NCBI RefSeq assembly: GCF_030389965.1
Contig: NZ_CP128400.1
Span: 1,054,001-1,118,000 of the forward strand
DNA length: 64,000 bases
Source: Candidatus Chlorohelix allophototropha
GTDB taxonomy: Bacteria; Chloroflexota; Chloroflexia; Chloroheliales; Chloroheliaceae
Reading direction: 5' to 3'
The notes under the pieces are model-generated. The model was not told where the DNA came from, ran no database searches, and was given only the letters and a program-made list of their open reading frames with translations. Of this stretch, positions 51,152 through 52,033 are shown in pieces; the stretch's first letter is position 1, and the number at the start of each line of letters is the position of its first letter. A program made the position numbers and the translations under genes.

Positions 51152-51180
51152 AACGCCGGAGAACCTTCCGGCGTTTTTTT
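51152..51180 (+). terminator. Intrinsic terminator of the SDR gene
   Basis: AACGCCGGA (51152-51160) pairs with TCCGGCGTT (51167-51175), loop GAACCT, followed by a run of T. It also separates the convergent 51187-51561 gene. Confidence 0.92.
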
Positions 51181-51186
51181 CATTTC

Positions 51187-51561
51187 TCAGCCAAGCTCAA
51201 AATAAACCGCAGTTGCCCACCAATAAGAGCCACCACCCAAAGGAGGGCGATCTTCGCCACTGGCAAAGAAAATTTGCTGTTGGTAAAGCGACTGGATATT
51301 CTTGATATTAATGTTTCGGGTTTGCAGCCATGTCTGGAAGGTCTGCTCAAGGTTATCAATCGAGGGGGTGCGCCCCGCCCCAATAGTAAGCGCGCTACTC
51401 TTTTTTTCTACCTGATCGAAAAGGCTTCTGAAGGTGGAACTAGAGTTGCGAAGCTGCTGGCTGCCCACTGAAAAAACCCGCTTTGCCAGTTGCTGGTCGA
51501 GTGGAGTGGTAGCCGCTACAAAAAAATAAGCGTGCTTGACTCGTTTTGATCCAAATGCCAT
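51187..51561 (-). CDS. Unknown protein encoded downstream of a GG-leader peptide gene
   Basis: 124 residues, not recognised. It starts MAFGSKRVKHAYFFVAATTP, has a basic N-terminus, a helical-looking middle with Gln/Ser and Lys (about 20-100), and a Gly/aromatic-rich C-terminus (LGGGSYWWATAVYFELG). No signal peptide, membrane span or Cys. Ribosome site AAGGGAAG precedes ATG. It lies 148 bases downstream of the GG-leader peptide gene on the same strand, with no terminator between, so the two are probably one transcript. It might be an immunity, chaperone or second secreted protein (inference). Confidence 0.6.
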   Translation of the reverse strand: MAFGSKRVKHAYFFVAATTPLDQQLAKRVFSVGSQQLRNSSSTFRSLFDQVEKKSSALTIGAGRTPSIDNLEQTFQTWLQTRNINIKNIQSLYQQQIFFASGEDRPPLGGGSYWWATAVYFELG

Positions 51562-51709
51562 GCCAACACTTCCCTTTTTTCATGAAGTTTTATATTTCGC
51601 TTGGGGCAAGAAGCCTATGAAAGTTATCAAATAAAGCCGTGTATAGGTGAGTAGTCGAAGAGCAAATCGCCCAGTTGCCATAACTGATAAACGCTCCCGT
51701 CACTACACG

Positions 51710-51910
51710 CTACATGATATTGCTTATCGAGTTTTTCACGGTATCGTGTTTAGTTTTCATAATGTTACTGATCATTTCCACTTGGGAATTGAGGTCGAGG
51801 ATTGCTTGCCCGCCAGTTCCCGTACCGCCGCTTACATTCTCCAGAGCTTCATCCGCTAGTTCACCTTCTACGATAGGCAATGCGGTTTGTTCCTCTTTTT
51901 TCTCCTGCAT
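51710..51910 (-). CDS. Double-glycine-leader peptide, RiPP/bacteriocin-like precursor
   Basis: 66 residues. The leader has the pattern of C39-peptidase substrates: ELADEALENVSGG (17-29), acidic, with Leu/Val at the usual positions and the Gly-Gly at 28-29. The expected core is 37 residues (about 30-66): a Gly/Thr-rich start, then helical DLNSQVEMISNIMKTKHDTV. The core has no Cys, so lanthionines or disulfides are excluded. Ribosome site AGGAG is 7 bases before ATG, and a near-perfect promoter lies upstream. No peptidase/ABC exporter or modification enzyme is adjacent. Alternatives: a GG-leader signalling peptide or small secreted filament subunit. Confidence 0.75.
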   Translation of the reverse strand: MQEKKEEQTALPIVEGELADEALENVSGGTGTGGQAILDLNSQVEMISNIMKTKHDTVKNSISNIM

Positions 51911-52003
51911 AGATTTTCTCCTATTTAATATTTTTCGGATCTATTCAGTTCAAAAGCTTAGGAAAATCGGATTGGTCGGCGTTGTGTTAGTTCCTACTCA
52001 AAT

Positions 52004-52033
52004 GTTATACAGTTAGTCTATCAGCCTTGTCAA
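52004..52033 (-). promoter_or_regulatory. Sigma70-type promoter of the GG-leader peptide gene
   Basis: Reverse strand: TTGACA (52033-52028), 18-base spacer, TATAAC (52009-52004). The predicted leader is about 85 bases. It lies close to the promoter of the divergent GNAT gene. Confidence 0.75.

Follow-up and report, generated by a model that had tools for sequence, protein, structure and literature searches.

Precursor peptides of the NHLP and Nif11 families (TIGR03793 and TIGR03798) carry an acidic leader ending in a double glycine (GG), with one NHLM exporter (TIGR03794, TIGR03796, and TIGR03797) serving many precursors. Precursor genes unlinked to the export genes are a known habit of these peptides (PMC2887384). 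In Synechococcus elongatus, the small secreted GG proteins EbfG1-4 have a role in biofilms and are released by the C39 exporter PteB (PMC4997328). In type III secretion systems (T3SS), the needle protein SctF has a C-terminal helix, present also in SctI, that lines the needle channel and accounts for most contacts between subunits (PMC4045390).

The locus described here belongs to a known kind of gene, the GG-leader precursors served by NHLM exporters. It resembles NHLP/Nif11 systems in its acidic GG leader, in the sharing of one exporter by many precursors, and in its distance from the export genes (PMC2887384), but its leader is short, without a nitrile-hydratase or Nif11 domain, and its core is a Cys-free needle-like helix. 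The likeness to EbfG/PteB (PMC4997328) lies in the GG motif and the C39 exporter and was drawn from features, not from sequence; ebfG1-4 are on one transcript, whereas the GG genes of Chloroheliales are scattered and mostly single. Its C-terminal helix may share with SctF (PF09392, including MxiH, PrgI, and YscF) and SctI an in-register SN..K...D.....I.N pattern, at scores under the curated cut-off. The peptide differs from these proteins in relying on a GG leader rather than on type III export, and the first needle helix is missing from the cores.

Precursor gene and its neighborhood

For "Ca. Chlorohelix allophototropha" L227-S17, replicons of 2.96, 2.45, 0.375, 0.241, and 0.055 Mb have been published (PMC10972752). 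The host genome used here (G000) has 6.09 Mb in five contigs, the largest being C1 (2.96 Mb) and C2 (2.45 Mb). The window, that is, the whole 64-kb stretch of DNA that was analyzed, corresponds to C2:1054001-1118000, and was compared with four genomes of the same family (G001 to G004). The relevant features, in window positions, are as follows.

52004..52033, minus strand: promoter TTGACA-18-TATAAC, 11/12 matches (site scan of the window and sequence)
51918..51922, minus strand: ribosome-binding site AGGAG, 7 nt 5' of the ATG (direct reading)
51710..51910, minus strand: gene for a GG-leader precursor peptide of 66 aa (direct reading and orthologs)
51824..51910, minus strand: 29-residue acidic leader ending in ELADEALENVSGG (leader profile; predicted cleavage after Gly29)
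51713..51823, minus strand: 37-residue Cys-free core, mostly predicted helical (AlphaFold2)
51713..51772, minus strand: conserved 20-codon needle-like helix ISNIMKTKHDTVKNSISNIM (sequence comparisons, codon comparison, and HMMs)
51187..51561, minus strand: 124-aa ORF, present as first described

The 66-aa ORF (leader/core, MQEKKEEQTALPIVEGELADEALENVSGG/TGTGGQAILDLNSQVEMISNIMKTKHDTVKNSISNIM) is almost certainly a real GG precursor. Direct reading bore out most of the original prediction: the ORF with its GG leader, the excellent ribosome-binding site, the Cys-free core, and the 124-residue gene downstream with no terminator-like site in between were all found. On the two strands of the window, just three sites reach at least 11 of 12 matches, and the promoter, described as near consensus, is among them; a simple promoter scanner did not call it because it requires a T at the last -10 base. 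The helical end of the core was also reproduced, with a helix predicted by AlphaFold2 at residues 34 to 65 (pLDDT of about 66 to 78; mean of the model, 65.8), and with modest confidence the core can be regarded as one long helix.

The leader matched our leader profile with an E value of 4.5e-8, a figure that includes the contribution of the window leader itself as one of the eight profile rows; E, L, G, and G are invariant in the eight-sequence leader alignment. Against the curated profiles, the peptide missed the cut-off of the NHLP leader TIGR03793 (12.6 bits versus 50.9) and had no match to the Nif11 leader TIGR03798, which other GG peptides of G000 do match. A leader with conserved E/L/L ending in GG, together with a C39 peptidase-exporter in the genome, marks it as a double-glycine precursor. 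There is no Cys in the core and no modification enzyme among the nearby ORFs, which were read by eye, so that it does not qualify as a Cys-based RiPP, in agreement with the suggestion that the core falls outside the classical RiPP classes.

The 124-aa gene was ruled out as a partner of the peptide. The sole clear relative of this gene was found in G002, a genome without the peptide, so the two genes do not form a unit, and the peptide orthologs of G001 and G004 have no 124-aa gene alongside. A Pfam match of its product to RNA_pol_Rpb5_N (E value of 0.015) was under the cut-off and was ignored. A strong terminator (AACGCCGGAGAACCTTCCGGCGTT followed by TTTTT) at window positions 51152 to 51175 serves a fabG-like gene on the plus strand.

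Conservation in the family

Orthologs of the peptide were found in three of the four same-family genomes: G001, G004, and, in a partial and frameshifted form, G003. Those of G004 (L018) and G001 (L019) adjoin lysS and are transcribed divergently from a gene for an acyl-CoA ligase; the G003 copy (L089) has the same acyl-CoA ligase neighbor, with its final residues out of frame. Among the orthologs the leader and spacer vary and the last 20 residues are constant. Between G000 and G004, 18 of the 20 residues of this C-terminal block are identical, and 8 of those 18 codons have changed synonymously; this segment (SNIMKTKHDTVKNSISNI-) is under purifying selection. The existence of orthologs and this conservation by synonymous change indicate that the locus is more than a chance ORF, and the outcome originally named as refuting the prediction, a peptide conserved in none of the relatives, did not occur. 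On a wider scale, a search with the core only (25 residues) in 400 evenly drawn genomes of the phylum gave matches in its own genome only, and a broader profile run phylum-wide added one further genome, G247.

An NHLM exporter probably acting in trans

The peptide was originally regarded as an orphan with no maturation or export genes. This is correct locally, as neither of the two C39 matches of G000 is inside the window and no LanM or radical SAM gene was seen among the ORFs near the peptide (read by eye), but not genome-wide. A complete NHLM exporter is found on the same replicon, 874 kb from the peptide, containing the only strong C39 match, and about 13 GG precursors besides that of the window are scattered over G000; the precursor is thus unlinked rather than orphan. 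The cassette is made up of an HlyD-type adaptor, an ABC protein with a C39 peptidase (ABC1), and a second one (ABC2) with a long N-terminal extension in which FHA domains were recognized by eye. All scores were well above the curated cut-offs (TIGR03796, 1134 bits versus 853; TIGR03797, 927 versus 709; TIGR03794, 234 versus 156), and ABC1 retains the Cys and His motifs of C39 (ECGAA and HFLVVEG). The cassette is at L005:3793-10938 (G000:C2, about 225.8 to 232.9 kb), with equivalents at L035 (G001) and L036 (G003). No GG precursor adjoins the exporter operon in G000, G001, or G003.

The census of GG peptides, which is based on the leader profile, gave 15 matches in G000, 14 in G001, 18 in G003, and 19 in G004, while G002 had two weak ones. 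In G000, 14 of the 15 were small ORFs of at most 124 aa, including that of the window, and the last was a 276-aa frame with an E value of 1.39. The retrieved ORFs fall into short-leader and Nif11-leader classes, two of them checked against NCBIfam. A strong C39 exporter, 14 to 19 leader matches, and the peptide co-occur in four of the five genomes, an association drawn from these five; G002 has none of the three (its only C39 match reached a weak 25 bits, with no NHLM exporter and no peptide). Judging from these sequence data, the peptide is probably exported via the NHLM system. The C39 domain of the single NHLM exporter would recognize and cut the acidic leader, releasing a 37-residue, mostly helical, and probably unmodified peptide.

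Other loci of these genomes also encode GG peptides or C39 proteins. G001, G003, and G004 encode another protein with a C39 domain, of about 910 aa, accompanied by a partner gene and by a small protein anchored in the membrane (L038:4762-10207, L039, and L040); this second C39 protein was not found in G000. Five Nif11-leader-type GG peptides are in tandem at L081:5427-7557 (G000:C1, about 2.008 Mb), some with cores that start with LNPQPLPP or INPQPLPP and end in IIIVSGRF; the same NPQPLPP and IIIVSGK pieces are found again in relatives, where they occur in short-leader peptides (L022, L096, and L114) with their order reversed. Mersacidin-type class II lanthipeptide precursors were detected at L024:7898-11432 (G003), L115 (G001), and L117 (G004), in G003 with a large LanM-like ORF overlapping or following the precursor.

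A needle-like helix

Divergent versions of the C-terminal helix were found in other GG peptides, namely L059 in G000, L020 and L021 in G004, and L110, L111, and L023 in G003. A third version, without a GG leader, forms the end (MDRQSKFMNALSNILKKIDSTQETIVQNLKG) of a 239-aa protein of the Chloroflexota genome G247 (L141:8387-9106). The best Pfam match of L021, L059, and the G247 protein was PF09392 (T3SS_needle_F), with E values of 7.4e-4, 0.0035, and 0.012, respectively, always at the C-terminal end of the profile. When PF09392 was run genome-wide, the top match was a GG peptide in both G000 and G004. All the needle matches were under the Pfam curated cut-off (20.1 bits for the best paralog versus 29.4), and the window peptide alone matched neither PF09392 nor a needle in the PDB. 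The likeness to SctF consists of repeated, in-register, subthreshold matches to which the window peptide is linked indirectly, via its paralogs.

A profile of all the helix versions (A4) retrieved from the PDB 7y6c_F, a 43-residue chain of a T3SS needle complex (E value of 0.0015), along with several PrgI entries; 7y6c_F is deposited under a co-chaperone name, and its sequence reads like a needle C terminus. With the GG cores alone (A5), seven of the nine PDB matches were chains of needle systems, all in register, and the reversed-alignment control gave zero matches. The five most divergent paralogs alone ranked a non-needle protein, Mx1, first. In leave-out HMMs, the profile of each group ranked almost all held-out sequences of the opposite group above any unrelated frame (19,206 frames), with the window peptide at an E value of 0.046 and the best reversed-frame matches at 1.2 to 1.9; these HMMs join the window-type and paralog-type cores. 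No match to FHIPEP (SctV/FlhA), the export gate of T3SS and flagella, was present in any of the five genomes examined.

The same C terminus was found by a plasmid search in a 138-aa protein (WP_231780188.1) of a Spirosoma sp. KNUC1025 plasmid, with an E value of 1e-8 against the G004 core. This protein has no evident GG leader and no match in the phage search, and its weak Pfam matches, PF11887/MCE among them, were taken as coiled-coil noise. A degenerate DNA pattern detected the motif in three IMG/VR contigs (L121 to L123), two of which (L121 and L123) represent the same locus. The carriers have roughly 160 aa and end in ...SNVMKTKHDTAKNAINNVR and similar sequences. The motif gene is followed by a weak match to PF17001 (T3SS inner rod YscI/HrpB; E values of 0.0048 in L121 and 7.6e-4 in L122), and in L121 a further version of the helix forms the end of the preceding gene. 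Adjoining needle-like and inner-rod-like genes are located at L138:7293-9005 (IMGVR_UViG_3300025133_009854) and L122:2367-3228, in apparent phage contigs. The Spirosoma and phage-contig proteins (L121 and L122) resemble the peptide in their C-terminal 20 to 33 residues and differ from it in their size (138 to 160 aa) and in having no recognizable GG leader. A further match in Isoptericola was discarded as due to chance, the frame crossing a cardiolipin-synthase-like ORF in GC-rich DNA.

We consider it reasonably probable, from these comparisons, that the helix family includes the needles by descent. The main alternative is that the needle likeness reflects convergence of short amphipathic helices and that we are dealing with a secreted GG-leader product of the ordinary kind. 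The short repeat unit (20 to 35 residues), which counts against our whole reading, makes such convergence possible, and the subthreshold needle scores and the missing direct match of the window peptide speak for it. Against it are the fact that several lineages have the helix at the C terminus and in one register, the reciprocal detection by HMMs, the zero matches of the reversed alignment, and the SctI-like neighbor gene in phage contigs, and we see it as somewhat unlikely.

Possible function of the peptide

A needle-type helix suggests that the exported peptide, alone or with its GG-peptide paralogs, may assemble into an extracellular fiber or matrix with a function comparable to that of EbfG/PteB, its C-terminal helix being a member of a group of "needle-type" assembly helices remotely similar to that of SctF. 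By analogy with the needles, assembly is a possible function of the peptide, which we advance tentatively. The complete reading, in which a C39-cut, NHLM-exported peptide with a needle-type helix self- or co-assembles outside the cell, is put forward with slightly less than even confidence. From the functions first proposed (pheromone, bacteriocin, or small secreted subunit), the subunit appears possible and the other two are rivals of lower probability; these two, a modified RiPP, and convergence are not all mutually exclusive.

An unmodified class II-type bacteriocin, an exported amphipathic helix that permeabilizes the membranes of competitors, would account for the GG leader and C39 exporter and for a helical hydrophobic moment higher than about 99% of shuffles, and paralogs do match bacteriocin profiles weakly, in the leader part only. 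This is nevertheless unlikely: the core has no net charge, neither the peptide nor its orthologs have an evident immunity gene beside them, and the best-conserved part is a motif common to larger leaderless proteins, superfluous for a simple membrane peptide.

Slightly less probable is a RiPP precursor modified before export by a distant enzyme, either a LanM or a B12 radical-SAM C-methyltransferase. The prochlorosins provide a precedent for a single promiscuous enzyme that modifies many precursors in trans (PMC10783134), and in G000 a TIGR03975 radical-SAM RiPP C-methyltransferase has a Nif11-type precursor beside it and a needle-like GG peptide (C1:1603427) some 2 kb away. Against this, the core is Cys-free, and its conserved block is part of the helix and resembles proteins that have no leader. 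The methyltransferase and Nif11-type precursor are at L082:8592-11231 and the needle-like peptide is at L059:1465-1674, within G000:C1, about 1.603 to 1.608 Mb.

A role as a pheromone or a signal of cell density, comparable to that of the competence peptide of streptococci, which is likewise encoded apart from its exporter, would fit a solo gene with a GG leader, a short helical core, and a weak ComC leader match in one paralog, but is improbable given the many diverse paralogs per genome and that no histidine kinase or regulator was seen adjoining the gene or its orthologs.

Significance

The core type appears to be new, judged by curated profiles, where it has no match above the cut-off, and by the literature searched; a full-text search with the motif strings gave no match. 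A needle-type assembling peptide would join two unrelated worlds, the GG peptides that peptidase-exporters release and the helix by which injectisome needles assemble. The strongest form of the idea, that a family of type I (NHLM)-exported peptides is the bare assembly helix of T3SS needles, with which T3SS-less bacteria build or disrupt needle-like filaments, is speculative and in our view rather unlikely. If true, the helix module that ends phage and plasmid proteins, in two phage contigs next to an inner-rod-like gene, would suggest that needle-type assemblies form a broader class, extending beyond T3SS. The link between the two worlds, if correct, would make the polymerizing helix a portable module common to needles, phage proteins, and free peptides. 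A first clue to function would then exist for the numerous GG peptides scattered over the genomes of Chloroheliales, an order known in culture from a lake phototroph of wide evolutionary interest.
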